Shown in pieces: positions 7,435 through 57,263 of a stretch of 64,000 bases of DNA. Numbering within the stretch: the stretch's first letter is position 1; each line of letters begins with the position of its first letter. Below the pieces are notes generated by a model that worked only from the letters and a program-made list of their open reading frames with translations, was not told where the DNA came from and ran no database searches. Source of the DNA: Streptomyces mirabilis (GTDB lineage: Bacteria > Actinomycetota > Actinomycetes > Streptomycetales > Streptomycetaceae); contig NZ_JBCJKP010000001.1 of NCBI RefSeq assembly GCF_039503195.1, positions 2,418,001-2,482,000 of the forward strand. Direction: 5' to 3'. The translations under genes and the position numbers were made by a program.

Positions 7435-8292
7435 CTAGCTGTCGGTGACGGAGCGGCACCCTCCGGAGGCGCGCTGTGCACGGGCGGACGCGTAGAGACA
7501 TACGGCGGCGGCCGTCGCGAGGTTCAGACTCTCGGCCTTTCCGTGGATCGGTACGCGCACGACGGCGTCCGCCAGCGCGCGCGTCTCCTCCGGGAGCCCC
7601 CAGGCCTCGTTGCCGAACACCCAGGCGGTGGGGCCGCCCATGGTCCCTTTGTCGAGCTCGTCGTCTAGGTCGTCCTCGCCCGCGCCGTCGGCGGCGAGGA
7701 TCCGTACGCCGGCGTCCTTGAGGCCCTGCACGGCTGCCTCCACGGGCACACCGACGGCCACCGGCAGATGAAAGAGGGAACCGACCGAGGCCCGTACGGC
7801 CTTGGGGTTGTAGAGATCGACGGACGCGTCGGTGAGTACGACGGCCTCGGCGCCGGCGGCGTCGGCGCACCGCAGCACCGTGCCGGCGTTCCCGGGGTCG
7901 CGGACGTGTGCGAGTACGGCGACGAGCTTGGGGCGGGCCGTGAGGATCTCCTCGAACGGGGTGTCGAGGAAGCGGCAGATCCCGACGAGCCCCTGGGGAG
8001 TGACGGTGGTCGAGATGTCGGCGATCACCTCCTCTTCGGCGAGGTGCACCCGGGCTCCGGCGGCCCGGGCGTCCCCGACGATGTCGGCGTAGCGCTCCGC
8101 GGCCTCGACGGTCGCGAACAGTTCGACGAGCGTGGCCGCCTCGTCGACGCGGTGCGCCGCCGCCTCGCGCACGGCCTGCGGTCCCTCGGCGAGGAACAAC
8201 CGCTCCTTGCCGCGGAAGTTCCGCCGGGCGAGCCGCCGCGCGGCGGCTACGCGCGGCGAGCGCGGGGAGATCAGCTCGGGGGCGGCGGGCAT
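7435..8292 (-). CDS. SpoU/TrmH-family RNA 2'-O-methyltransferase
   Basis: A 285-aa RNA methyltransferase of the SPOUT (TrmH) class, which transfers methyl groups from SAM to ribose 2'-OH in rRNA or tRNA. An N-terminal substrate-binding domain (RNFRGKERLFLAEGPQAV) is followed by the three SpoU motifs: RDPGNAGTVLRCADAAG, VFGNEAWGLPEE and AESLNLATAAAVCLY. The start at 8292 is supported by GAGGTGA seven bases upstream. The frame stays open far upstream through the 70-bp repeats, but this extension is low-complexity and lacks a ribosome binding site. It lies between rplT and the sensor kinase, as I recall for other streptomycetes. Confidence 0.9.
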   Translation of the reverse strand: MPAAPELISPRSPRVAAARRLARRNFRGKERLFLAEGPQAVREAAAHRVDEAATLVELFATVEAAERYADIVGDARAAGARVHLAEEEVIADISTTVTPQGLVGICRFLDTPFEEILTARPKLVAVLAHVRDPGNAGTVLRCADAAGAEAVVLTDASVDLYNPKAVRASVGSLFHLPVAVGVPVEAAVQGLKDAGVRILAADGAGEDDLDDELDKGTMGGPTAWVFGNEAWGLPEETRALADAVVRVPIHGKAESLNLATAAAVCLYASARAQRASGGCRSVTDS

Positions 8293-8385
8293 GAAGTCAC
8301 CTCGGGGGGGTTGCGGAGGGTTCGGCTTGGGAGGGGGCGGGGCAGGGTCCCCTCGGAGAAGACGACGAGGCTGGGTACCCCCGCC

Positions 8386-8925
8386 GGAGGCCGGAGGCCA
8401 TGTCCGCCGAGACGGAACCCCGCCGCCGGGCCCGGGGCCGACGGGTTGGGTGTCCCGTCGGAGGCCGGGCATCGGCCGAGCCGGAACCCCACCACCGGAC
8501 CCAGAACCAACCGGCCAGGTATCCCCACCGGAGGCCAGGCGACCAACCGGCTGGGTGTCCCCGCCGGAGGCCAGGCGTCCGCTGGGACGGAACCCCACCA
8601 CCAGACCCGGGCCAACCGGCTGGGCGACCTCGCCGGAGGCCAGGCATCGGCCAGGACGGAGTCCCGCCGCCAGCTCCGGGACCAATCGGCTGGGTCCCCC
8701 GCTGGAGGCCGCGTCGGCCGAGACGGAACCCCGCCGCCGGACCCGGGCCCGACCGGCTGGGTGTCCCCCCGCCGGAGGCCAGGCACCGGCCGGGACGGAA
8801 TCCCGCCGCCGGACCCGGAATCGACGACCGGCTGGGCGACCCCGGCCGGAGGCCAGGCACCGGCCGGCACGGATCCCGCCGCCGGGCCCGGGGCCGATCG
8901 GCTGGGTGTCGCCGGCTGGAGGGCT
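8386..8925 (+). repeat. Degenerate 70-bp tandem repeat (minisatellite)
   Basis: The motif GGAGGCC followed by a conserved 60-base body recurs at 8386, 8460, 8530, 8566, 8635, 8704, 8774, 8848 and (decayed) 8918. Spacing is 74, 70, 36, 69, 69, 70, 74 and 70 bp, so there are about seven full units and one half unit. Units end in a conserved CCGGCTGGGTGTCC-like sequence and contain a potential hairpin (for example CGGGACGGAATCCCG). The period is not a multiple of three, which argues against coding. It fills most of the 0.9-kb gap between the methyltransferase and rplT. From 8926 to 9136 I see no gene. Confidence 0.85.
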
Positions 8926-9136
8926 TCGGTGTTGCGGGTGGGCTTCGTGTGCCCGGTGGGGGCACACGGCCTGTCATGCGTGGCGTTCGGTGCCGATCCG
9001 GGCAGGGATTCCCGCGCCGCAGGCACTTCTCCCGCCCTCGCGGCACTCAGCCGCGAACGGCGGAACCCGGCGGTGCCGAACCGACATCGCCGACGCGCAG
9101 CGTGCCTGGACAGGCCGGCGGAGCCCAAACGCACCG

Positions 9137-9166
9137 GGACCCGCAAGCCGTGAGGCAAGCGGGTCC
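9137..9166 (-). terminator. Terminator hairpin after rplT
   Basis: GGACCCGC (9137-9144) pairs with GCGGGTCC (9159-9166). Inside, after symmetric AA mismatches, GCC and GGC close a GTGA loop. It begins 33 bp beyond the rplT stop codon and is the probable end of the infC-rpmI-rplT transcript. Confidence 0.65.
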
Positions 9167-9198
9167 ACAGCGACGTACGGCTCAGGCGAGCGCGAGCG

Positions 9199-9582
9199 TC
9201 ACGCGGCCTTCGGCGCGTTGACGTCCGACGGCAGCGCCTTCTGCGCGACCTCGACGAGCGCGGCGAACGCACCGGCGTCGTTCACGGCCAGCTCGGCCAG
9301 GATCTTGCGGTCGACCTCGATGTTCGCGGCCTTCAGACCCTGGATGAAGCGGTTGTACGTGATGCCGTTGGCGCGGGCAGCGGCGTTGATGCGCTGGATC
9401 CACAGCTGCCGGAAGTCGCCCTTGCGCTTCTTGCGGTCGTTGTAGTTGTAGACCAGCGAGTGGGTGACCTGCTCCTTGGCCTTGCGGTACAGGCGCGAAC
9501 GCTGACCGCGGTAGCCGGAGGCCGCCTCGAGGATCGCCCGGCGCTTCTTGTGGGCGTTGACTGCCCGCTTGACGCGTGCCAC
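9199..9582 (-). CDS. rplT: 50S ribosomal protein L20
   Basis: A 127-aa protein beginning [18 protein letters not shown], with the L20 signatures [17 protein letters not shown] and [16 protein letters not shown]. It binds 23S rRNA early in large-subunit assembly and often acts as an autoregulator of its operon. Third gene of infC-rpmI-rplT, 96 bp after rpmI. The upstream GGAG-type sequence in AAGGAGTT supports the start. Confidence 0.98.
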
Positions 9583-9678
9583 TTTTTAACTCCTTGTAGC
9601 GGGGCCGTGGTTGTCGTCACACGGCCCGAAATCGATGGGGTCCCGGTCGGAGGTCAGGCGCGCGGTGCGCGCCCGACG

Positions 9679-9873
9679 TCACTTGCCGAGAAGCTTCTTG
9701 ATCTTCTTGGCGTCGCCCGGGGCCATCTCGGCGTTGCCGGTGAGGCGGCGCGTCAGGCGCGACGACTTGTGCTCGAGCAGGTGGCGCTTGCCGGCGCGCT
9801 CACGGAGCACCTTGCCGGAGCCGGTGACCTTGAAGCGCTTGCTGGCACCGCTGTGCGACTTGTTCTTCGGCAT
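9679..9873 (-). CDS. rpmI: 50S ribosomal protein L35
   Basis: A 64-aa basic protein, [18 protein letters not shown], with the conserved [16 protein letters not shown] core. Normal length for L35, a small component of the large ribosomal subunit. It lies 155 bp after infC and 96 bp before rplT, the conserved bacterial order. GAGGAGA immediately upstream is a strong ribosome binding site. Confidence 0.98.
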
Positions 9874-10028
9874 AGCGCCGTTCTCTCCTCGTCAGTGGCG
9901 TTCCGATGCCCGGTCGTTAAACCGGGCACGGTGGAACGTCATGTATGTATCGATTGACATCCCCGGACTCACGTCCCGTGGACTCCGTGGACTGCCGTCC
10001 CGGACTCCCCGGAGCCTTCACCCTGGGA

Positions 10029-10721
10029 TCAGGCCTCGGCGGAAGCCTCGGCCGGGGCCTCGGAGGTCTCGGCCTCGGAGGTCTCGCCCTCGGCGATCTC
10101 ACCCTCGGCGATCTCACCGTCGGCGGCGTTCTGCGAGCGACCGGGGTTGGCCTTCGCTTCTGCCTTGCGAGCCGCCTGGGCCTCACGGGCCTCGGCCATC
10201 GCCTCGGTCTTCTTCTTGTGCGGACCGAGAACCATGATCATGTTTCGGCCGTCCTGCTTCGGGTTCGACTCGACGAACCCGAGGTCCTCGACGTCCGAAG
10301 CCAGACGCTGCAGCAGTCGGTAGCCGAGCTCCGGCCGGGACTGCTCGCGACCGCGGAACATGATCGTGATCTTGACCTTGTCGCCCTGCTTGAGGAACCG
10401 GACGACGTGACCCTTTTTGGTGTCATAGTCGTGCGGGTCGATCTTCGGCCGGAGCTTCATTTCCTTGATGACCGTGTGCGCCTGGTTCTTGCGCGCCTCA
10501 CGGGCCTTCATGGCCGACTCGTACTTGAACTTCCCGTAGTCCATGAGCTTGCAGACCGGCGGACGCGCGCTCGCCGCCACCTCGACCAGGTCGAGGTCGT
10601 ACTCCTGCGCAAGCTCCAGGGCCTTGGCAAGCGGAACAATCCCGACCTGCTCGCCGCTGGGACCGACAAGTCGCACCTCGGGAACGCGAATCCGGTCGTT
10701 AATGCGGGGCTCGGTGCTGAT
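10029..10721 (-). CDS. infC: Translation initiation factor IF-3, probable AUC start
   Basis: IF-3 binds the 30S subunit and checks the start codon and initiator tRNA. N-domain [19 protein letters not shown], linker, and C-domain ([19 protein letters not shown]) are present. An acidic repeat-like tail ([18 protein letters not shown]) makes it longer (230 aa) than the usual 180. No ATG fits the N terminus. The only strong Shine-Dalgarno, CGAGGAGGATCC, sits directly before an ATC codon (10719-10721, reading ATC AGC ACC GAG). IF-3 genes classically use AUU, AUC or AUA starts for autoregulation. A GTG at 10745 is the alternative, but the Shine-Dalgarno would then lie inside the gene. Confidence 0.9.
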
Positions 10722-11040
10722 GGATCCTCCTCGGTAGCACCACACGGCGGTCTGGCGGACAGCCGCGTATGTCTCTGATGACATTGGACCAACCACCGCG
10801 GGGCATGAAAAATGCCCCGGGACGGTACACAGGCGGGGCTCCAACGAATACCGGAGCACCGCCGCGGTGAACCGCGGGGCGCACATTCGGGCGACTCCAC
10901 CGTCCGTACGGAACGGTGGTGGCCGCCTGACCGGGTGACCCGCCATCCCTGAGGACGGTCGGGTGGGAGATCGGAGCCTCCACTTGTGGGCCGAGCACGC
11001 TGACATAAGTCTGGGCGCATCCGGCCGGTCGTTACACAAG
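10722..11040 (-). promoter_or_regulatory. Structured leader of infC-rpmI-rplT
   Basis: About 320 bp without a gene separate infC from the divergent DUF1844 gene. On the infC strand it holds an 8-bp hairpin closed around TTTTC (arms 10799-10806 and 10812-10819) and, near 10863-10878, CCGCGGT/ACCGCGG. A GCCCCGC segment near 10833 could pair alternatively with the first hairpin. This resembles a regulated ribosomal-protein leader, possibly bound by L20 or controlled by termination. The L20 leader known in Firmicutes is not recognisable by eye. Confidence 0.45.
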
Positions 11041-11128
11041 GTTAGCAGCTCCCCGGGGCCCGCGCTAACCGAGCGCCTCCACGCTCCCGCGGACGGGTGC
11101 CCACGTGCCGGGGCCTATCGTGTGGGAC

Positions 11129-11485
11129 ATGAGTGAGACCCCTCCCCAGAACCCCGACTTCGACAGCATGACCCGCGACATCGCCGAGGTCCCCGCGGTC
11201 GAGGTCCTCGTCACGGTCGCCGTCAACCTGATGAGCGCCGCCGCCGTGAAGCTCGGTCTGACCGAGGAGGGCGACAAGTACAAGGACCTCGACGAGGCGC
11301 GCAAGCTGATCCACGCGCTGGCCGGACTGCTGGACGCGAGCGCGACCGAGATCAGCTCCTTCCACGCGTCCCCGCTGCGCGACGGACTGAAGTCGCTGCA
11401 GCTGGCGTTCCGCGAGGCGTCGATCGTCCCGGACGAGCCCGGCCAGGGCCCGGGCGAGAAGTACACGGGCCCGATCTACGGCTAG
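11129..11485 (+). CDS. DUF1844 family protein
   Basis: A 118-aa acidic cytoplasmic protein, MSETPPQNPDFDSMTRDIAE. The DUF1844 signature is VAVNLMSAAAVKLGL followed by DLDEARKLIHALAGLL. The function of the family is unknown; it is widespread and often sits beside infC-rplT in actinomycetes. I chose the ATG at 11129; an in-frame ATG at 11105 would add MPGPIVWD, which is less likely. It is divergent from infC and convergent with the SseB-like gene, with a hairpin between. Confidence 0.85.
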   Translation: MSETPPQNPDFDSMTRDIAEVPAVEVLVTVAVNLMSAAAVKLGLTEEGDKYKDLDEARKLIHALAGLLDASATEISSFHASPLRDGLKSLQLAFREASIVPDEPGQGPGEKYTGPIYG

Positions 11486-11495
11486 GACCTGATCC

Positions 11496-11523
11496 GCCGG
11501 AGAGGCCTTGGCTCCTCTCCGGC
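11496..11523. terminator. Bidirectional terminator hairpin
   Basis: GCCGGAGAGG (11496-11505) and CCTCTCCGGC (11514-11523) make a perfect 10-bp stem with an 8-nt loop, between the convergent DUF1844 and SseB-like genes. Confidence 0.7.
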
Positions 11524-11538
11524 TCCCGCTCCCGCTTT

Positions 11539-12270
11539 CTATCGACGTACGAACAAGGGCTCGCCCGGTGGCGTCGTCCCGGTCGGCAGCAGTGCCAGGT
11601 CGAGACCGCGCACCAGGCGGGCCCTCAGTGTTTCGTCGGCGGCGAGCCGCCCGGCGAGCGCGCGGGCGGCCTCGGCCGGGGCCGCGGTCGGGTCCAGTAC
11701 CAGCGCGAGCGTGCCGTCGGCCTGGCCGGGGCCCAGGTGGGCGCGGAGTACGGCGGGCTCGGCGGCCACGGCGGCGCGTACCGCCTCGACCACGGCGGGA
11801 TCGGCGAGCGGGTCCGCCGTCGTACGCCCCTCGGCTAGGGCGAGCAGCGCCGAGCCGGTCAGTTCGTACGGCACCGGACCGGCCAGGTCGAGGACGACCG
11901 TGTCGGCCTTCTCGTGCGCGGCGGCCTGCAAAGCCTGGTGCAGGGGTACGGCGACGGGGCGGGCCGCCGGGTCCCAGCGGGCCAGCGACTCGGTGGAGGT
12001 GAAGGCGGGCAGGGCCGTGCGGTGGCCGGCCTTCAGGGTGGGCACCGCCATGTCGCTGGTCTTCTCGTGACGCAGCCCGTTCTCGTCCTCCTCGACCTCA
12101 CCGAGGACGGCCACGACGGGCACGAGGAGCCGGGCGCCCTTGAGCGCCTCCAGGACCGGCCCCACGGCGGTGCGGTCCTCGGCCCAGGCCGCCAGTGCCG
12201 CGCTCAGCCGGGGATCGGCGGAGCCGTCGTCGTCGGGGAAGCCGGAGTCGGGAATGTTCTTGTTCGCCAC
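11539..12270 (-). CDS. SseB-like domain protein
   Basis: A 243-aa soluble protein that begins, from a GTG, as MANKNIPDSGFPDDDGSADPRL. The SseB-like N-terminal domain is recognised by LLVPVVAVLGEVEEDENGLRHEKTSDMAVPTLKAGHRTALPAFTSTESLARWDP. The second half (VVLDLAGPVPYELTG and an Ala-rich helical region) resembles the SseB C-terminal part. The family role in Streptomyces is unknown. An upstream in-frame ATG at 12366 would add 32 residues, but the conserved MANKNIPDSG start favours the GTG. Convergent with the DUF1844 gene. Confidence 0.75.
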   Translation of the reverse strand: MANKNIPDSGFPDDDGSADPRLSAALAAWAEDRTAVGPVLEALKGARLLVPVVAVLGEVEEDENGLRHEKTSDMAVPTLKAGHRTALPAFTSTESLARWDPAARPVAVPLHQALQAAAHEKADTVVLDLAGPVPYELTGSALLALAEGRTTADPLADPAVVEAVRAAVAAEPAVLRAHLGPGQADGTLALVLDPTAAPAEAARALAGRLAADETLRARLVRGLDLALLPTGTTPPGEPLFVRR

Positions 12271-41846: not shown

Positions 41847-42013
41847 GATGACCTCACCTCGTCTCCGAATATCCGTTGCCGAACATATCGCGTGTACGCG
41901 GCGCGCGTCAATACACACGATGTATCGCGATTCTTCACGGGGCGCAAGGGCGTGAGGACTTAGGCCCGACCCCGACACGGCCGTGTCACGCGAGCGAAAC
42001 AGGTACTCCCTAA

Positions 42014-42033
42014 TTTCTGTCACCCGACAGGAA
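42014..42033. promoter_or_regulatory. Near-palindromic operator before the APC permease, same as at 50465
   Basis: TTTCTGTCACCCGACAGGAA is an 8-4-8 dyad with one mismatch. It matches the perfect operator upstream of the DUF1989 operon, and both copies share the left flank CCCTAATTTCTGTC. It lies 64 bp before the permease start. I infer joint control by the TetR protein at 49.6 kb. Confidence 0.65.
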
Positions 42034-42097: not shown

Positions 42098-43648
42098 GTG
42101 ACCACCACCGCCCCCTCCGACGTACGCCCCGACCCTCCGGAGTCCTCCGGCGACCGATCCCTGGCCGAGTTCGGCTACCGCCAGGAGCTGCACCGCAGCC
42201 TCGGCCGGTACGCCTCGTTCGCCGCAGGGTTCTCCTTCATCTCCGTCCTGACGACCGTCTTCCAGTTCTTCGCCTTCGGGTACGCGTTCGGCGGCCCCGT
42301 CTTCTTCTGGACCTGGCCGGCCGTGCTCGTGGGCCAGTTGGCGGTCGCCGCCTGCTTCGCGGAGCTGGCCGCGCGCTATCCGATCTCGGGCGCCATCTAC
42401 CAGTGGTCCTCGCGTCTGTCGAACCTCTCCTTCGGCTGGTTCGCCGGCTGGATCATGGTGATCGGGCAGATCGTGGTGGTTGCGGCGGCGGCGCTCGCGC
42501 TGCAGATGGTGCTGCCCGCGATCTGGTCCGGCTTCCAGCTGGTCGGCAGCGATCCGGCTCCCACCAGCCCCGACGGAGCGGCCAACGCGGCGGTCCTCGG
42601 CGTGATCCTCCTCGTGCTGACCACCCTGGTGAACGTCATCGACAACCGCGTGATGTCGGTGATCAACCGGATCGGTGTCACCGCCGAGATCATCGGCGCC
42701 GTCCTGATCATCGTGCTCCTGCTCACCCACTCCGAGCGCTCTCCCGGCATCACCTTCCACGCCGGCCAGGGCAGCACCGGCCTGTTCGGGGCGCTGATGG
42801 TGGGCTCGTTCATGGCCGCGTACGTCATGATCGGCTTCGACAGCGCCGGGGAGATGAGCGAGGAGACCCACCACCCGCGCCGCACCGCGCCCCGCACGAT
42901 CCTCACCGCGCTAGGCGCCGCGGGTCTGCTCGGCGGACTGATCGTGCTCGGCGGACTGCTCGCCGCGCCCAGCCTCACCGACGGCCGTCTCGGCGTCGAC
43001 GGTCTGAGCTACGTCCTGACCAGCAGCCTCGGCGACGGGGTCGGCCGCGCGCTGCTCGCCGACGTCGTGGTGGCCATCGCGGTGGCGACCCTGGCGATCC
43101 AGACCGCTGCCTGCCGCATGCTCTTCTCGATGGCCCGCGACCACCAGCTCCCCTTCTCCGGCCGCCTCTCCAAGGTCAACCCGCGCACCGGCATGCCGAG
43201 CGCTCCCGCCCTGGTCGTCGGCGTCCTCGCCGCCGCTCTGCTGCTGCTCAACTTCGCCTCCCCCGACGCCTTCCTGGCGATCGGCACCACCTGCATCGTG
43301 ATGCTGTACCTGGCCTACGCGATGGTGACCGGGCCACTGCTGGTCCGTCGGCTGCGCGGGCAGTTCACCGCCGACGGCACCGACGAGAGGGGCGCCCCGC
43401 TCTTCTCGCTGGGCCGCTGGGGCGTCCCCGTCAACGTGATCGGCCTCGTCTACGGCCTCTTCATGACCGTCAACCTCGCCTGGCCGCGCGCGGCGGTGTA
43501 CGACCCGGCCGGGGGACACTGGTACTTCCAGTGGTTCACGGTGCTGTTCCTGGGCCTGACGCTGGTCGCCGGCGCCGCCTACCGGGCCTACCGGGCGCGG
43601 ACACCGGTGGGCGAGACTCCCGAGGTGGTCCCGGCCTCGTACGCCTGA
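42098..43648 (+). CDS. APC-superfamily permease
   Basis: A 516-aa membrane protein with about 12 helices (FAAGFSFISVLTTVFQFFAFGY, ISGAIYQWSSRLSNLSFGWF, GFDSAGEMSEETHHPRRTAPR). The E-E-T-H-x-P-R-R signature is that of the amino acid/polyamine/choline superfamily, close to GABA/choline-type permeases. Its GTG start has GGCAGG upstream. Given the shared operator, I infer that it imports the nitrogen compound used by the 50.5-kb operon (urea, guanidine or a related amide). APC permeases are commonly found next to urea-carboxylase operons in other bacteria. Confidence 0.88.
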   Translation: MTTTAPSDVRPDPPESSGDRSLAEFGYRQELHRSLGRYASFAAGFSFISVLTTVFQFFAFGYAFGGPVFFWTWPAVLVGQLAVAACFAELAARYPISGAIYQWSSRLSNLSFGWFAGWIMVIGQIVVVAAAALALQMVLPAIWSGFQLVGSDPAPTSPDGAANAAVLGVILLVLTTLVNVIDNRVMSVINRIGVTAEIIGAVLIIVLLLTHSERSPGITFHAGQGSTGLFGALMVGSFMAAYVMIGFDSAGEMSEETHHPRRTAPRTILTALGAAGLLGGLIVLGGLLAAPSLTDGRLGVDGLSYVLTSSLGDGVGRALLADVVVAIAVATLAIQTAACRMLFSMARDHQLPFSGRLSKVNPRTGMPSAPALVVGVLAAALLLLNFASPDAFLAIGTTCIVMLYLAYAMVTGPLLVRRLRGQFTADGTDERGAPLFSLGRWGVPVNVIGLVYGLFMTVNLAWPRAAVYDPAGGHWYFQWFTVLFLGLTLVAGAAYRAYRARTPVGETPEVVPASYA

Positions 43649-49553: not shown

Positions 49554-50180
49554 TCAGATTCCGGCGATCCGCAGCGCCGCGTCGGCGGTCGCTTCGGCGA
49601 AGGCGGACACGGGCCGCTCGGGGTCGGACCGGTGCACGAGGATCACCCCTTCGATGAGACCGAACAGCAGATCCGTCCGCAGGTCGAGTTCACTCTTGAC
49701 GAGCGCGCCACCTGCCGTGGTCGCGGCCAGCAACTGCCGGTAGGTGTCCTTCAACTCGGCCCGTACGGCATGGAAGCCGGCGAAGCGCTCGGCGCGCACC
49801 TCGGGCAGCAGATACAGCCCGCCCAGGTTGTGCGGGCCTGCGCAGAGCAGCTCAACGTCGGTGCGGCACAGCTCCCACAGCCGGTTCTCGGGCGGGGTCG
49901 CGTCGTCGGCGAGGAGCTCCCGGGCGAAGGCGAGCGAGGGTGTGACGGTCGACTCCAGGAGCTCGGCGAGCAGCTCCTCCTTGCCGGAGACGTAGTGGTA
50001 CATCGACGCCTGGCGCATGCCGGCCCGCTCGGCGACGGCACGGGTGGTCGTCGCGGCGTACCCGCGCGTCGTGAACAACTCGGCGGCGGCGTCGAGCAGT
50101 TCGTCCCGCGGCGACAGCCCACTGTCCGGCCGCTGCGCAGCCCGGGGCCGCCCGACCCGTCGCCCACCACCACTTCCCAT
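49554..50180 (-). CDS. TetR-family regulator, probable repressor of the DUF1989 operon
   Basis: A 208-aa TetR protein. HTH at about 25-70: LLDAAAELFTTRGYAATTTRAVAERAGMRQASMYHYVSGKEELLAELL. The helical C-terminal domain holds GLYLLPEVRAERFAGFHAVRAELK and LFGLIEGVILVHRSDP. Starts at MGSGGGRRVGRP. It is transcribed away from the DUF1989 operon, 330 bp apart. The perfect palindrome near that operon and its copy at 42014 are the natural targets. Ligand unknown. No palindrome is seen at its own start, so it may not regulate itself. Confidence 0.88.
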   Translation of the reverse strand: MGSGGGRRVGRPRAAQRPDSGLSPRDELLDAAAELFTTRGYAATTTRAVAERAGMRQASMYHYVSGKEELLAELLESTVTPSLAFARELLADDATPPENRLWELCRTDVELLCAGPHNLGGLYLLPEVRAERFAGFHAVRAELKDTYRQLLAATTAGGALVKSELDLRTDLLFGLIEGVILVHRSDPERPVSAFAEATADAALRIAGI

Positions 50181-50339: not shown

Positions 50340-50464
50340 GCACCCGACCCACACCCTCAAACCCACGGAGCGCCCCGTACCGCCAAACCCGCGGAACGTC
50401 CGGTGAGGGGTCGGTAACCGTCCGGCAACACTCGGGACACGACCCCGACCCTCCCCGCCCCTAA

Positions 50465-50484
50465 TTTCTGTCGAGCGACAGAAA
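50465..50484. promoter_or_regulatory. Perfect 20-bp palindromic operator of the DUF1989 operon
   Basis: TTTCTGTCGAGCGACAGAAA is a perfect 9-2-9 palindrome, 25 bp before the first gene of the operon. Its length and form fit a TetR dimer site. A near copy lies at 42014-42033. Confidence 0.75.
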
Positions 50485-50509: not shown

Positions 50510-51334
50510 ATGGCGACAGCGACCACTTACGGAGCCCGTGCCCACGCCCGGGCGCAAGAGGGTTCCCGCACGGAGGCCATGCCCGTCGTCCCGGCGGGCG
50601 CCTGGCCCGCGCCGCCCTGCGAGGCGGGCCACCTGGTGTGGGCGGAGACGGTGGCCGCCGGCAACTACACGCACAAGGTGCTGGCCCGCGGCACGGAACT
50701 CAGGCTCACCGACCTCAGGGGCGACGCCTGCGCACACCTGCTCCTGTACGCCGCCGACCGCCCCTGGGAACGCCTGAACGTGGCGGACACGGTCAAGGTC
50801 CAGTGGAACGCCTACCTCGGCGAGGGGCAGCTGCTCCTCTCCGACCAGGGCCGCGTCCTCGCCTCCCTGGTCGCCGACACCTCCGGCCGCCACGACACGC
50901 TCTGCGGCACCTCCACCCTCGTACGCAACACCCAACGCTACGGCGACGGAACCCCGCAGTCCGCCTCCCCCGCCGGCCGCGAACTGTTCAAGCTGGCCGC
51001 CGCCAAGAACGGCCTCGAACCCCGCGACCTGCCCCCCTCGCTCTCCTTCTTCCAGGGAGTGGAGGTCCGTGACGACGGCTCGCTGGACTTCACCGGTTCG
51101 GCGGGCCCCGGCGGCAGCGTGACGCTCCGCGCCGAACAGGACGTGACCGTGCTGCTCGCGAACGTGCCGCACCCCGCCGACCCCCGTACGGAGTACGTCA
51201 GCACTCCCCTGGAGGTCCTCGCCTGGCGCGCGGCCGCGACCGCGCCCGGCGACCCGCTGTGGGAGGCCACACCCGAGGGCCGCCGCGCCTTCCTGAACAC
51301 CGCCGAGTTCCTTGCCGCGAGGGGGATCGCATGA
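50510..51334 (+). CDS. DUF1989 protein 1 (urea-carboxylase-associated; carboxyguanidine deiminase subunit)
   Basis: A 274-aa protein of DUF1989. It contains GNYTHKVLARGTELRLTDLRGDACAHLLLY, AYLGEGQLLLSDQGRVLASL, the CGTSTLV segment and FFQGVEVRDDGSLDFTG. The family was first called urea-amidolyase-associated protein and was later shown to form a two-subunit carboxyguanidine deiminase (CgdAB) in guanidine degradation. Conserved His/Cys/Asp residues likely hold a metal. First gene of the operon; GGAGGA precedes the ATG, and the last 4 bp overlap the next gene. Confidence 0.88.
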   Translation: MATATTYGARAHARAQEGSRTEAMPVVPAGAWPAPPCEAGHLVWAETVAAGNYTHKVLARGTELRLTDLRGDACAHLLLYAADRPWERLNVADTVKVQWNAYLGEGQLLLSDQGRVLASLVADTSGRHDTLCGTSTLVRNTQRYGDGTPQSASPAGRELFKLAAAKNGLEPRDLPPSLSFFQGVEVRDDGSLDFTGSAGPGGSVTLRAEQDVTVLLANVPHPADPRTEYVSTPLEVLAWRAAATAPGDPLWEATPEGRRAFLNTAEFLAARGIA

Positions 51335-51936
51335 AGACCGTGGTTCCGGCCCGGGCCGCCTGGTCCGCCGTCGTCCGCACCGGAGAGACGCTCACCGTCA
51401 CCGACCTGCACGGCAACCAGGCCGTCGACTTCCTGGTGTACGACGCCCACGACACGACCGTCCGCTACAGCGCGCCCGACACCATCCACGCGCAGGGCAA
51501 CCTCTTCCTCACCACCGGCAGCGTGCTGATGTCCAACGAGCACACCCCGCTGATGACCGTGGTCGCGGACGAGGTCGGCCGGCACGACACGGTCGGCGGC
51601 GCCTGTTCCAAGGAGTCGAACACCCTGCGCTACGGCCACCACACCTGGTCCCAGCACGCCTGCGTGGACAACTTCCTCGCGGAGGGCGCCAAGTACGGCC
51701 TCGGCAAGCGCGATCTCGTCTCGAACATCAACTGGTACATGAACGTGCCGGTCGAGAAGGACGGCACCCTCGGCATCGTCGACGGCATCTCGGCCCCGGG
51801 GCTCACGCTGACCCTGCGCGCCGAGTGCGACGTCCTCGTGCTGGTCTCCAACTGCCCCCAGATCAACAACCCCTGCAACGGCTTCGAGCCGACCGCGGTG
51901 GAGATGACCATCGAGGCGAGCGGGGCGACGGGATGA
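51331..51936 (+). CDS. DUF1989 protein 2 (second carboxyguanidine deiminase subunit)
   Basis: A 201-aa DUF1989 paralogue of the preceding gene: LTVTDLHGNQAVDFLVYDAHD, AQGNLFLTTGSVLMSNEHTP, DTVGGACSKESNTLRYG and NCPQINNPCNGFEPTAVEM. Two paralogues side by side before a biotin carboxylase fit the CgdAB pair. It overlaps both neighbours by 4 bp (ATGA), so all three are translationally coupled. I chose MKTVVPARAAW because it sits at that overlap. Confidence 0.88.
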   Translation: MKTVVPARAAWSAVVRTGETLTVTDLHGNQAVDFLVYDAHDTTVRYSAPDTIHAQGNLFLTTGSVLMSNEHTPLMTVVADEVGRHDTVGGACSKESNTLRYGHHTWSQHACVDNFLAEGAKYGLGKRDLVSNINWYMNVPVEKDGTLGIVDGISAPGLTLTLRAECDVLVLVSNCPQINNPCNGFEPTAVEMTIEASGATG

Positions 51937-54900
51937 CCTTCGACACCCTGCTGGTCGCCAACCGCGGCGAGATCGCGGTACGGATCATCCGCACCGCCCG
52001 TGAACTCGGCCTGCGCACGGTCGCCGTGTACTCCGACGCCGACCGCTCCGCACCCCACGTCCGGCTCGCCGACGAGGCGGTACGGCTGGGGCCCGCGCCC
52101 GCGAAGGAGTCCTATCTCGACGCCGACCTCGTCCTGAACGCGGCCAAGGACACCGGGGCCGGGGCGATCCACCCCGGGTACGGCTTTCTGTCCGAGGACG
52201 CGGCCTTCGCGCGGCGTTGCGAGGACGCCGGGATCGTGTTCGTGGGTCCGACGCCGGAGCAGCTGGAGCTGTTCGGGGCGAAGCACACGGCGCGGGCGGC
52301 GGCGGAGGCGGCCGGGGTGCCGTTGGCGCCGGGCACGGGACTTCTCCCCGGTCTCACCGAGGCTCTGGAGGCGGCCGCCCGCATCGGCTATCCCGTCATG
52401 CTGAAGGCCACCGGCGGTGGCGGCGGCATCGGTATGTCGGCATGTCGCTCCGCCGATGAACTGACCGGGGCATGGGAGCGGGTACAGCGCGTCGCCGCCG
52501 CCTCCTTCGCCTCCGCCGGGGTCTTCCTGGAGCGGCTGGTGGAGCACGCCCGCCATGTCGAGGTGCAGGTCTTCGGCGACGGCCGGGGCCGGGTCGTCAC
52601 CTTCGGGGACCGGGACTGCTCGCTCCAGCGCCGCAACCAGAAGGTGCTGGAGGAGGCTCCGGCACCGGGCCTGCCGTCCGCCGTTCGCACCCAACTCGCC
52701 GACGCGGCACGGGACTTGTGCGCCGCTGTCGGATACCGCTCGGCCGGAACCGTCGAGTTCGTCTACGACGCCGCCCGCGAGGAGGCCTACTTCCTGGAGG
52801 TCAACACCCGCCTCCAGGTGGAGCATCCGGTCACCGAGGAGATCTACGGCGTCGACCTCGTCGCCTGGATGCTGCGGCTCGCGCGCGGGGAGTCGGACGT
52901 CGTACGCGATCCGGGGGCGCCGCGCGGTCACGCCGTCGAGGCCCGGGTGTACGCCGAGGACCCCTCGCGCGACCACCGGCCGAGCGCGGGCCTGCTGACG
53001 CGGGTCGAGTTCCCCGGCGGCGTCCGCGTGGACGGCTGGGTGGAGACGGGCACCGAGGTGACCACGTCGTACGACCCGATGCTCGCGAAGGTCATCGCGT
53101 ACGGCCCGGACCGGGCGCACGCGCTGGAACGCCTCGACGAGGCGCTGGCCAGGACCCGGTTGGACGGTATCGAGACGAACCTGGGGCTGGTGCGGGCCGC
53201 GCTCGCCGAACCGTCCTTCCTGCGGGCGACGCACTCGACGGCGACGCTGGCCGAGGTCGGCGATCCCACGCAGCGCGTCGAGGTCGTCTCCGGCGGGACC
53301 CTCACCACGGTCCAGGACTGGCCTGGCCGCACCGGCTACTGGCAGGTGGGTGTGCCCCCGTGCGGCCCGATGGACGACCTCTCCTTCCGGCTCGGCAACC
53401 GCGCCCTCGGCAACTACGAGGGGGCACCCGGTCTGGAGTGCACCCTCCAGGGGCCGACCCTGCGCTTCACCCATGCGACGACGGTGTGCGTCACGGGCGC
53501 ACCGGCGCGGGTCACCGTGGACGGCGCGGCGGTCGCGCAGTGGGAACCGGTGACGGTACCGGCGGGGGCCCTGCTGGAGGTCGGCTCCCCCACCGAACAC
53601 GGCCTGCGCACCTACGTGCTCTTCGCGGGCGGGGGCCTGGACGTACCGGCGTTCCTCGGCAGCGCGTCCACGTTCACGCTGGGCCGATTCGGCGGGCATG
53701 GAGGCCGCGCCCTGCGCACCGGCGACGTACTGCACGGCGGCTCGGCGACGGATCACGGGGTGCCGGTACCGGTCGGCGACCGCCCCGGGTTCTCCTCCGC
53801 CTGGCGGGTCGGCGCGCTCGAAGGCCCGCACGCCGCACCGGAGTTCTTCACCGAGGACGACATCCACGACTTCTACGCCGCCGACTGGAAGGTCCACTTC
53901 AACTCGGCGCGCACGGGCGTACGGCTGATCGGCCCGAAGCCCCGCTGGGCGCGCACCGACGGCGGCGAGGCGGGCCTGCACCCGTCCAACATCCACGACA
54001 CGCCCTACTCGGTGGGCGCCGTCGACTACACCGGCGACATGCCGGTGCTGCTCGGCCCGGACGGCCCCTCGCTCGGCGGCTTCGTCTGTCCGGCGACGGT
54101 CGTCAGCACGGAACGCTGGAAGCTCGGCCAGTTCCGCCCCGGTGACACCGTGCGCTTCGCACCGCTGGCCGACGACGGCTCGCAGCGGCCCGCGATCGTC
54201 GACGGCGGGGTGCTCGCGCGGGACGGCGACGTGACGTACCGCCGCAGCGGAGACGACAACCTGCTCGTCGAATTCGGGCCCATGCAACTGGACCTGGCGC
54301 TGCGCATGCGGGTCCACGCGCTGATGGAATCCGTGGCCGAGGCCGCGCTCGACGGCGTCACGGACCTGACCCCCGGCATCCGCTCCCTGCAGATCCAGAC
54401 GGACCCCGGCAGGCTTCCGCAGCACGAACTCCTCACCGCGGTACGGGAGATAGCCCGCACACTCCCGCCGAGCGACCAGCTGGTCGTCCCCTCCCGCACG
54501 GTGCACCTCCCCCTCTCCTGGGACGACCCCGCGACCCGCGAGGCGATCGCCCGCTACATGGCGGGCGTCCGCGACGACGCGCCCTGGTGCCCGTGGAACA
54601 TCGAGTTCATCCGCCGCGTGAACGGCCTGGACTCGGTGGACGACGTGTACCGCACGGTGTTCGACGCGGAGTACCTCGTCCTGGGCCTGGGCGACGTCTA
54701 CCTCGGCGCACCGGTGGCCACCCCGCTGGACCCGCGCCACCGCCTGGTGACCACCAAGTACAACCCGGCGCGCACCTGGACCGCCGAGAACTCGGTCGGC
54801 ATCGGCGGCGCCTACCTCTGCGTCTACGGCATGGAGGGCCCCGGCGGCTACCAGTTCGTCGGCCGTACGACCCAGGTGTGGTCGGGGTGGCAGCAGCGCG

Positions 54901-55448
54901 GTGCGTTCGAGCCGGGCTCGCCCTGGCTGCTGCGCTTCTTCGACCGCATCAAGTGGTACGCCGTCGAGCCCGACGAACTCCTCGACCTGCGCGCCGACAT
55001 CATCTCGGGCCGTTTCGTGCCCCGGATCGAGGAGGGCGTCTTCTCGCTGGCCGAGTACGAGGCCTTCCTCGCCACCCACTCCACGTCCATCGCGGAGTTC
55101 CGGGCCAGGCAGGGCGCCGCGTTCTCCGCCGAGCGGGACGCCTGGGAGGCGGCGGGCGAGTTCGACCGCGCGGACGCCGTGTCCGCACCCGCGGCGCCCA
55201 CCGCCGAGGTGACCGTCCCCGCGGGCGGCCGTCTGATCGAGGCCGAGTTCGCGGCCTCCGTGTGGCAGCTGAACGTCAGGCCGGGCGACCGGGTGACGAC
55301 CGGCCAGCCCCTGCTGGCGCTGGAGGCGATGAAGATGGAGTCCAGGGTGCCCGCCCCGATGGACGGAGTGGTCCAACAAGTCCTCACCAAGCCCGGCGCC
55401 CAGGTGGAAGCGGGCACAGCACTGGTGGTCCTGGCACCCGCCACCTGA
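51933..55448 (+). CDS. Urea/guanidine carboxylase, biotin-dependent
   Basis: An 1171-aa multidomain enzyme of the usual urea carboxylase length. Biotin carboxylase domains (about 1-450): LVANRGEIAVRIIRTARELG, ATGGGGGIGMS, FLEVNTRLQVEHPVTEEIYG. Then AHS2/KipA-like (about 460-770: GTLTTVQDWPGRTGYW) and AHS1/KipI-like (about 780-1060: LLVEFGPMQLDLALRMRVHA, SGRTVHLPLSW-like) carboxyltransferase regions. The C-terminal biotinyl domain carries LLALEAMKMESRV, with Lys near 1134. It carboxylates urea to allophanate or guanidine to carboxyguanidine using ATP and bicarbonate; the DUF1989 partners favour guanidine. Third gene of the operon. Confidence 0.93.
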   Translation: MTFDTLLVANRGEIAVRIIRTARELGLRTVAVYSDADRSAPHVRLADEAVRLGPAPAKESYLDADLVLNAAKDTGAGAIHPGYGFLSEDAAFARRCEDAGIVFVGPTPEQLELFGAKHTARAAAEAAGVPLAPGTGLLPGLTEALEAAARIGYPVMLKATGGGGGIGMSACRSADELTGAWERVQRVAAASFASAGVFLERLVEHARHVEVQVFGDGRGRVVTFGDRDCSLQRRNQKVLEEAPAPGLPSAVRTQLADAARDLCAAVGYRSAGTVEFVYDAAREEAYFLEVNTRLQVEHPVTEEIYGVDLVAWMLRLARGESDVVRDPGAPRGHAVEARVYAEDPSRDHRPSAGLLTRVEFPGGVRVDGWVETGTEVTTSYDPMLAKVIAYGPDRAHALERLDEALARTRLDGIETNLGLVRAALAEPSFLRATHSTATLAEVGDPTQRVEVVSGGTLTTVQDWPGRTGYWQVGVPPCGPMDDLSFRLGNRALGNYEGAPGLECTLQGPTLRFTHATTVCVTGAPARVTVDGAAVAQWEPVTVPAGALLEVGSPTEHGLRTYVLFAGGGLDVPAFLGSASTFTLGRFGGHGGRALRTGDVLHGGSATDHGVPVPVGDRPGFSSAWRVGALEGPHAAPEFFTEDDIHDFYAADWKVHFNSARTGVRLIGPKPRWARTDGGEAGLHPSNIHDTPYSVGAVDYTGDMPVLLGPDGPSLGGFVCPATVVSTERWKLGQFRPGDTVRFAPLADDGSQRPAIVDGGVLARDGDVTYRRSGDDNLLVEFGPMQLDLALRMRVHALMESVAEAALDGVTDLTPGIRSLQIQTDPGRLPQHELLTAVREIARTLPPSDQLVVPSRTVHLPLSWDDPATREAIARYMAGVRDDAPWCPWNIEFIRRVNGLDSVDDVYRTVFDAEYLVLGLGDVYLGAPVATPLDPRHRLVTTKYNPARTWTAENSVGIGGAYLCVYGMEGPGGYQFVGRTTQVWSGWQQRGAFEPGSPWLLRFFDRIKWYAVEPDELLDLRADIISGRFVPRIEEGVFSLAEYEAFLATHSTSIAEFRARQGAAFSAERDAWEAAGEFDRADAVSAPAAPTAEVTVPAGGRLIEAEFAASVWQLNVRPGDRVTTGQPLLALEAMKMESRVPAPMDGVVQQVLTKPGAQVEAGTALVVLAPAT

Positions 55449-55602: not shown

Positions 55603-57263
55603 ATGTCCGTCCTGACCCGAGTCCACCTGGCCTACGCCCGCATCGAGGCAGTCGACCGCCCCGAGATCTGGATCGACCTACGCCCCCGGGCAGAGGTCGA
55701 GAAAGAAGCCCAGGCCATCGACGCCCGCCTCGCCGCAGGCGAACACCTCCCCCTCGCCGGCAAGCTCCTCGCCGCGAAGGGCAACATCGACGTGGCCGGC
55801 CTGAAGACCACCGCAGGCTGCCCGGCCTACGCGTACACCCCGGAGGGCGACGCCCCCGCGGTCGCCCGCCTCCGCACAGCCGGCGCACTCGTCCTCGGCA
55901 CCACGAACCTCGACCAGTTCGCCACCGGCCTGGTCGGCACCCGCTCCCCGCACGGCGCCGTACGAGGCGCCCTGGACCCGGCCAGGATCAGCGGCGGCTC
56001 CAGCTCGGGATCGGCCGTGGCCGTGGCCCTCGGCATCGTCGACCTCGCCCTCGGCACCGACACGGCCGGCTCCGGACGCGTCCCCGCCGCCTTCAACGGC
56101 ATCGTCGGCCTCAAGCCCACCCGCGGTCTGGTCCCGGCCACCGGTGTCGTCCCGGCCTGCGCCTCGCTCGACTGCGTGACCGTCTTCGCCCGCACGCTCC
56201 CGGAGGCCGAGCAGGCCCTCTCATACCTGGCGTCCCCCTCAGGACGCGAACTCCCCGCACTCCCCCAGCGGGCCCCCGGCCCCTGGCGCGTCGCCGTCCC
56301 CCGACGGCACAGCTCGGCGAACTCGACGAGGGCTGGGCGCAGGCGTACGAGGCCGCCGTGGAGCAGCTCGTCGCCGCCGGGGCCGAGGTGCGCACGCTCG
56401 ACCTCACCCCGTTCACCGAGGCGGCGGCGATGCTCTACGAGGGCGCGTTCGTCGCCGAGCGCTACACGGCGGTGGGAAGCTTTGTCGACAAGTTGATCAG
56501 CGAGGGGGGTGCGGGTCTCGACCCGACCGTCGCCGGGATCATCACCCGCGCCCGGGACATCCCCGCCCACCAGCTCTTCGCCGACCAGGACCGGCTGGCG
56601 GCGCTGCGCACCCGGGCCCTCGCCGAACTCGGCGACGCGGACGCCCTGTTGCTGCCGACCGCACCCGGCCACCCCACGCTCGCGGAGGTCGCCGCCGACC
56701 CGCTCGGCGCCAACGCCCGGCTGGGCCGCTTCACCAACTCCACGAACCTCTTCGACCTGGCGGCGGTCGCCGTCCCGGCCGGTCTCACGCCCGCCGCACT
56801 GCCCTTCGGCGTGATGCTGATCGGCCCGGCGTTCACCGACGAACGCCTCGCCCGGATCGCCGCGCTGCTCCAGCCGGGCCTGCGGATCGCGGTGGTCGGC
56901 GCCCACCTGTCCGGCCAGCCGCTGAACCCCCAGCTCCTGTCCCTGGGCGCGGAGTGGGAACGTACGACCACGACGGCACCCGCCTACCGTCTGCACGCAC
57001 TGTCCACCACCCCGCCCAAGCCGGGCCTGGTCCACGGAGGCGAGAGCGCCGGAGCCCGCATCGAGGCCGAGGTGTGGCGACTGCCCGCGGCGGGCCTCGG
57101 CCGGCTGCTCGCCGACCTGCCGCGACCGATGGCACTGGGCCGTGTCGAACTCGCCGACGGCACTCACGTGCCCGGCTTCCTGTGCGAGCCCGCGGCGCTC
57201 GAAGGCGCCGAGGACATCACGGAGTACGGCGGCTGGCGCGGCTACCTCCGGACCCGCGCCTGA
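55603..57263 (+). pseudogene. atzF: Allophanate hydrolase, split by a one-base frameshift
   Basis: The N-terminal amidase-signature part is in one frame: LLAAKGNIDVAGLKTTAGCP (Lys), GGSSSGSAVAVALGIVDLAL (Ser-Ser) and GTDTAGSGRVPAAFNGIVGL. The rest is in another: ELDEGWAQAYEAAVEQLVAA through LLLPTAPGHPTLAEV, and the C-terminal domain RIEAEVWRLPAAGLGRLLAD to GGWRGYLRTRA. The shift lies at the C5 run 56298-56302; one added C reads VAVPPTAQLGELDEGW and gives 553 aa, close to the AtzF length. The enzyme hydrolyses allophanate to ammonia and CO2, the final step. It starts 154 bp after the carboxylase with CAGGAG upstream. A sequencing error is likely. Confidence 0.85.

Follow-up and report, generated by a model that had tools for sequence, protein, structure and literature searches.

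Which protein reads the perfect 20-bp palindrome that lies in front of a DUF1989 (cgdA-cgdB) and carboxylase operon in the 64-kb window considered here (the window being the whole stretch of DNA that was analysed), and to which signal would it respond? An earlier note on this DNA had read the palindrome as the operator of a TetR-family regulator and had connected it, through a second site, with both import and breakdown of a substrate; comparative genomics supports both suggestions. Our analysis indicates that the palindrome is very likely an AmtR operator, one of a conserved pair, in a soil bacterium; the regulon would be repressed by AmtR, activated in GlnR fashion and probably devoted to the use of guanidine. 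What the earlier note lacked was the identity of the regulator as AmtR with its published regulon, the probable guanidine pathway and, probably, a second, GlnR-like input upstream of both boxes.

The probable operator pair

The palindrome (operator 1, TTTCTGTCGAGCGACAGAAA) was confirmed as a perfect dyad, and its end lies, as noted before, 25 bp from the ATG of the first gene of the operon, which is transcribed divergently from the TetR-family gene (Table 1). The near-identical site that had been placed about 8.4 kb away before an APC permease gene was recovered 8451 bp from operator 1 and 64 bp before the permease start; this operator 2 (TTTCTGTCACCCGACAGGAA) deviates by one mismatch in its GACAGGAA half, and both sites indeed carry the same 14-base left flank, CCCTAATTTCTGTC. 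That two such sites are far above chance is borne out: the 20-bp pattern, with up to three mismatches allowed, matches twice in the window against 0.06 matches expected, and one of 100 shuffles reached two. The short core CTGTC-N4-GACAG, with up to two mismatches allowed, is not enriched across the window (23 found versus 41.8 expected), and its perfect copies in the window are operators 1 and 2 only. Since operator 1 is 284 bp away from the assumed amtR start (ATG at 50180), we assign it to the operon promoter. The window also contains an Rfam match to the Streptomyces sRNA Scr1601 (positions 10807-11033, 163.5 bits).

Table 1. Features of the putative AmtR regulon, in window coordinates.
Feature	Position	Strand	Remarks
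Pentamer array, permease promoter	41952..42000	+	five pentamers, 11-bp spacing, ahead of operator 2
Presumed -10-like hexamer TAATTT	42011..42016	+	overlaps operator 2; from sequence
Putative AmtR operator 2	42014..42033	.	TTTCTGTC-ACCC-GACAGGAA, one mismatch; precedes APC permease
APC permease, urea-carboxylase-system type	42098..43648	+	TIGR03428, 653 bits, below cut-off of 740
amtR, TetR-family repressor, 208 aa	49557..50180	-	start assumed; stop codon 49554-49556 excluded
Pentamer array, operon promoter	50403..50451	+	GTGAG, GTAAC, GCAAC, GACAC, GACCC; 11-bp spacing
Presumed -10-like hexamer TAATTT	50462..50467	+	overlaps operator 1; from sequence
Putative AmtR operator 1	50465..50484	.	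TTTCTGTC-GAGC-GACAGAAA, perfect dyad; precedes cgdAB-carboxylase operon
cgdA-like, DUF1989, UAAP1	50510..51334	+	TIGR03425, above cut-off
cgdB-like, DUF1989, UAAP2	51331..51936	+	TIGR03424, above cut-off
Urea/guanidine carboxylase	51933..55448	+	TIGR02712, 1836 bits (cut-off 1304); Asp698 at specificity site
Allophanate hydrolase	55603..57263	+	frame broken near 56299-56318; family libraries run on downstream piece only

The regulator and its regulatory domain

Homology identifies the divergent TetR-family gene as one encoding AmtR. The best match in the PDB is 5e57, which is named AmtR (E 9e-37) and aligns over residues 21-205, thus covering both the DNA-binding and the regulatory domain, followed by five AmtR-type sequences (E 2e-34 to 3e-31), two of them likewise named AmtR, and the first match outside the AmtR group is far weaker (E 3e-12). 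We take 5e57 to be the AmtR of M. smegmatis, and 5dxz and its kin to be that of C. glutamicum. The residue order Thr42, His43, Arg52-Ser55, Tyr57, Tyr58 and His59 stated for C. glutamicum AmtR in a passage of PMC2723105 agrees with the letters of 5dxz. Of the residues that the same passage endows with roles in DNA binding, Thr42, Gln53, Ser55 and Tyr57 correspond to T46, Q57, S59 and Y61 of the window AmtR (S59 is replaced by T in two of 12 aligned AmtR rows), while Tyr58 and His59, also described as important for DNA binding, correspond to His62 and Tyr63. The C. glutamicum AmtR box is given there as tttCTATN6AtAGat/aA (PMC2723105). With TTTCTGT-N6-ACAGAAA, the window box has the C. glutamicum layout, one core base being changed from A to G, and both core forms are present among the boxes of relatives (TTTCTRTC). 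For M. smegmatis AmtR, Petridis et al. reportedly described in 2016 the site CTGTC-N4-GACAG, to which the core of the present box would be identical.

According to a passage of PMC4617892, C. glutamicum AmtR is released from DNA by a PII protein, and the window protein, being a homologue, could in the same fashion read the nitrogen status through the PII protein GlnK and not through a small molecule. We consider this unlikely, since the same source describes mycobacterial PII as no regulator of the transcriptional nitrogen response, and since the regulatory domain differs: all 80 AmtR loci (the best 80 of 185) have D108, E127 and E177 without variation, as does 5e57, whereas 5dxz, a single Corynebacterium-type sequence, has E, I and M at these positions. 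The invariance extends to the 13 of these 80 loci in which the retrieved stretch holds no operon, and is thus not operon-specific. Such a pattern would fit an acidic binding site for a small cation, lost once GlnK had assumed control.

Conservation of the box

In the source genome (11.1 Mb in two contigs), searched as a whole, the box was found at seven places with up to three mismatches, versus two for the pattern read backward, and at three places with up to one mismatch, which is far from the dozens of unrelated sites that the earlier note had named as contrary evidence. The third of these places, at 5,991,253 (L003), is absent from the seven other operon-bearing Streptomyces genomes, and no nitrogen gene was recognised when its neighbours were viewed by eye; we therefore take it as a chance or private occurrence and not as a regulon member. 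Among 20 Streptomyces genomes searched with up to one mismatch, all eight that bear the operon have two places each (three in the source genome), no place was found in the 12 that lack a cgdA match, and the backward control gave none in any of the 20. In each of the eight, a perfect box precedes cgdA and a box with one mismatch precedes the permease gene, the mismatch always residing in the same half-site (GACAGGAA); this half, with one mismatch, recurs in 26 of 27 permease promoters (from the window and from loci among the best 80 of 185), L143 being the exception. Hence, operator 2 looks maintained rather than decayed, and comparison across genomes indicates that the two sites very probably constitute a conserved AmtR regulon in Streptomyces. 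Even where amtR is more than 1 Mb away from the operon, as in G323, the boxes remain at cgdA and at the permease, and there is no box near that amtR within four mismatches.

Across 396 Actinomycetota genomes, AmtR (E up to 1e-18) was found in 18, cgdA (E up to 1e-20) in 21, and both in 16; AmtR occurs without cgdA in G285 and G071, and cgdA without AmtR in five genomes, all of family f44. A box with up to one mismatch lies by the operon or amtR in 11 of the 16 genomes with both genes, including all eight Streptomyces. The remaining five comprise G038, G270 and G290, which match there at three mismatches only, and G243 and G252, which have no box within three mismatches near operon or amtR; a perfect box is present at a second amtR copy in G038 and G290. 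The G285 genome (locus L065) was searched as a whole and holds no box with up to one mismatch.

A further scan for AmtR among named relatives provided the best 80 of 185 loci; they include Streptomyces, Actinacidiphila, Microbispora, Actinoplanes, Cellulomonas, Gordonia, Nocardia, Rhodococcus, Mycobacterium and others, and they overlap with the draw from the phylum (e.g., L116, L134, L146, L152, L158), so that the two counts are not independent. In 67 of these 80 loci, cgdA or the carboxylase lies in the retrieved stretch. When searched there as TTTCTRTC-N4-GAYAGAAA, the box was found with up to two mismatches in 61 of the 67 operon-linked loci and without mismatch in 52, leaving six with no box at that threshold (L155, L158, L161, L172, L174, L180). 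In total, 96 box matches occur in 1.56 Mb of loci from this set, versus none for six patterns with shuffled halves. In five loci (L074, L159, L160, L163, L170), amtR stands without the operon in the retrieved stretch; all five share one and the same box, TTTCTGTCGTGTGACAGAAA, which begins 59-80 bp ahead of the amtR match, and on its far side in L074 there is an ABC transporter of the peptide type. Six Streptomyces loci (L065, L140, L141, L142, L145, L146) hold amtR with neither operon nor box in the locus.

The substrate of the operon

The operon unites cgdA, cgdB and the gene of an allophanate hydrolase, as in the guanidine carboxylase pathway, although the hydrolase frame is broken in the window. 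Between the same flanking residues, the window has 20 bases at the break and seven of seven Streptomyces relatives have 21; the hydrolase is intact in the relatives, and the break is either a sequencing error or a real frameshift. The carboxylase belongs to a family named urea_carbox, and the literature, including passages of PMC4222082, speaks of urea metabolism, so that the pathway might serve urea, with AmtR answering to urea or allophanate. We regard this as improbable, one argument being the enzyme's specificity site. D698 of the window carboxylase aligns with N1330 of the urea amidolyase 5i8i, and we take this position to be the Asp/Asn site meant by the rule that distinguishes guanidine from urea carboxylases. 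As stated in a passage of PMC12186494, which gives no position, Asp marks guanidine carboxylases and Asn marks urea carboxylases. Asp occupies this position in all 66 AmtR loci that are readable (from the best 80 of 185, 14 of which have no such fragment) and in the cgdAB operon of all 16 phylum-draw genomes that have both AmtR and cgdA.

In the phylum draw, the TIGR02712 search was permissive (365 of 396 genomes matched, mostly through biotin carboxylase domains), and residues were surveyed at 24 places in 23 genomes, namely those among the matches listed that reach the carboxyltransferase region. At the eight places other than the 16 operons, the residue is Asn (two), Ile (four), Met (one) or Ala (one), and none of the seven genomes holding only a non-Asp carboxylase among the matches listed has AmtR at E up to 1e-18; these seven represent three families, five of them a single one, so that relatedness may explain part of this pattern. 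G049 is instructive because it has both enzymes. Its Asp enzyme is accompanied by cgdAB, a sodium:solute symporter, amtR and a perfect box; its Asn enzyme (L192:2389-7913 and 7965-11624) lies with the urea-transporter genes UrtA, UrtB, UrtC and UrtD and a GntR regulator, and neither a cgdAB match nor a box with up to three mismatches was found in 19 kb. Hence, AmtR follows the Asp enzyme and not the use of urea as such. In G214, the Asn enzyme likewise has a GntR neighbour and there is no box in 14 kb. Two further points speak against urea: urease alpha is matched strongly at two places of the source genome (and weakly at a third), and urea, like amino acids, was without effect on DNA binding by M. 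smegmatis AmtR in the effector tests of PMC4222082, a passage that does not name guanidine or its products. Taken from these comparisons, the substrate of the operon is probably guanidine, not urea.

Riboswitches were considered as well. At Rfam gathering scores, the window contains no guanidine riboswitch, nor do the 15 other AmtR-linked operons of the phylum draw (stretches of ~3.4-3.8 kb and some longer ones). The source genome has no guanidine-I match, and its guanidine-III match remains below threshold (32.8 bits versus 36; L187:1501-1928, C1:4232662 onward). This match lies ~20 bp before a gene for a SugE/Gdx-type small exporter of the SMR family, which suggests that the source organism does meet guanidine.

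The five genomes of family f44 have a cgdAB operon whose carboxylase shows Ile or Met at the specificity site, and AmtR was not found in them at E up to 1e-18; in one of them, G321 (Met), a guanidine-I riboswitch is present, while the four others have neither a guanidine riboswitch nor a box at the operon. Asp as the sole mark of guanidine carboxylases is thus not watertight, and the f44 carboxylases (L075, L076, L194-L196) possibly act on another guanidine-like substrate. A TetR-type protein is matched weakly (31% identity, 45 bits) near the operon of G365. In seven loci of family f3 (L066-L072), the match of the Asp enzyme to the window protein is confined to the carboxyltransferase part (residues 443-1096, approximately), and no biotin carboxylase part was detected in 10-16 kb, so that another biotin carboxylase may be borrowed; the Mycolicibacterium locus L172 has a long carboxylase match, and the partial enzyme is therefore not universal.

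Architecture of the two promoters

Ungapped alignment anchored at the box of 38 operon and 27 permease promoters (the window plus 37 and 26, respectively, of the 42 loci L107-L148 from the best 80 of 185, included if the box lies within about 400 bp of the gene) revealed five pentamers in both promoter types at -62, -51, -40, -29 and -18 from the box, i.e., phased at 11 bp. These arrays, examined in Streptomyces and two other genera, resemble the GlnR box, for which a passage of PMC10704036 gives the consensus gTnAc-n6-GaAAc. In the window, the best match in the operon promoter is GTAAC-N6-GCAAC (50414-50429, one mismatch), and GTCAC-N6-GAAAC in the permease promoter (41985-42000) is an exact fit. 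The mean frequency of the major base in the pentamers is 0.93 (operon) and 0.88 (permease); the linkers of 6 bp reach 0.64 and 0.73, the region beyond the array on its upstream side 0.50 and 0.52, and the 30 bp after the box 0.47. The aligned promoters are kin, which inflates conservation, but the low conservation of the leader within this alignment serves as an internal control. Shifting the pentamer frame reduces conservation, albeit less sharply for the permease promoters. All 38 operon promoters have their best GlnR match at -51 (no mismatch in two, one in 31, two in five), and 25 of the 27 permease promoters have it at -29 (the full set of 27 shows no mismatch in 15 and one in 12), whereas shuffled sequences mostly match with three or four mismatches. 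The two preferred positions differ by 22 bp, which is two array steps. Within the permease array, pentamers two and three depart from the GlnR consensus. We infer from this resemblance that the arrays are GlnR sites. In conjunction with the -10-like hexamers overlapping both operators (Table 1), and with the CCTAA flank of the box that is conserved in the same alignment, the sequence suggests the order activator array, -10 region and repressor operator.

If transcribed, the perfect dyad, with its loop of four bases, would also fold and could then be an RNA hairpin in the leader, as part of an attenuator or a riboswitch. We reject this as highly improbable: the distance between box and start codon varies from 14 to 105 bp among the 38 operon promoters (start positions being extrapolated from protein matches), boxes of this type precede cgdA and permease genes alike and, in mycobacteria, occur near amtR, the window lacks an Rfam riboswitch, and the conserved footprint extends upstream and not downstream of the box. 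That the permease-side box is owned by a PadR regulator, the gene of which adjoins the permease in the window, L058, L060 and L061, has hardly any likelihood either, as this box is the AmtR box and PadR was undetected beside the permease in four of the seven other Streptomyces loci (L057, L059, L062, L063; 1.7 to 4 kb).

A model for control by AmtR

The preferred reading of the palindrome as an AmtR operator leads to the following model. An AmtR dimer would bind operator 1 across the -10 region and the probable transcription start, thereby blocking the operon of cgdA, cgdB, carboxylase and allophanate hydrolase, and operator 2 would impose the same block on the APC permease gene. The upstream array of GlnR-type pentamers, phased at 11 bp, would convey activation under nitrogen starvation, so that output from each promoter would require both low nitrogen and release of AmtR; it is thus probable that both promoters combine activation upon starvation with derepression. 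Passages of PMC4222082 report for M. smegmatis that the region upstream of the permease gene msmeg_2184 is bound by GlnR as well as by AmtR, and that AmtR devoid of its DNA-binding domain results in raised expression. The substrate would most likely be guanidine, with a compound of the pathway as the inducer; allophanate is one possible inducer.

A guanidine-type operon and a GlnR-like input beside an AmtR box make AmtR, the probable regulator of the operator pair, a candidate for a protein that senses guanidine or some product of the pathway. It is then tempting to speculate that in AmtR proteins outside Corynebacterium guanidinium (or carboxyguanidine or allophanate) binds near D108, E127 and E177 and thereby releases the box, a proposal that we put forward tentatively and rate at somewhat below even chances. 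If true, a guanidine-sensing AmtR would be the DNA-binding counterpart of the guanidine riboswitches, and the AmtR of Corynebacterium would have lost the pocket and come under the control of GlnK. The relevant passage of a 2025 review states that no protein sensor of guanidine is known. Our literature search, with most subscription journals outside it, found AmtR and guanidine together only in insect papers (by title); among the matches listed for guanidine-sensing regulators none was on AmtR by title, and a search for guanidine carboxylase terms together with AmtR returned none mentioning AmtR.

The operator itself was to be expected from published work, and it is the reassignment that matters: a regulator so far classed with urea use or the general control of nitrogen instead tracks guanidine-type carboxylases, and AmtR, with its defined operators and candidate residues, offers a concrete and cheap sensor candidate.

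Comparison with known systems

The closest known system is the AmtR regulon of M. smegmatis described in 2013 in PMC4222082, which, in the passages concerned, also proposes a homologue for S. avermitilis. Both systems share the regulator family, the small size of the regulon, the GlnR input (in M. smegmatis) and the targets, that is, a permease, urf1/urf2, a carboxylase and an amidase, with urf1/urf2 matching the DUF1989 genes by position; as here, amtR points in the opposite direction in S. avermitilis. Regulator, target set and that gene orientation are therefore already known from this source (PMC4222082). Its passages, however, read the pathway as one for urea and report no effector, whereas the carboxylase looks guanidine-specific here, and the promoter anatomy is here mapped across many species. 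What goes beyond prior work is the probable reassignment to guanidine, the GlnR-like pentamer arrays, and AmtR as a candidate sensor of guanidine or a product of its pathway.

With the C. glutamicum AmtR box, as given in a passage of PMC2723105, the operators share the 20-bp dyad, CTAT-type half-sites 6 bases apart and the TTT/AAA ends, but the half-site is CTAT there and CTGT here, and at least 35 genes are controlled there versus two conserved sites here. The guanidine carboxylase operons under riboswitch control, as described in passages of PMC12186494 and PMC12508155, have the same enzyme set and guanidine-specific control, yet they rely on an RNA aptamer where a putative DNA-binding repressor would act in the present case. 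Hence, the AmtR switch is of a known type, and what it senses may be guanidine.
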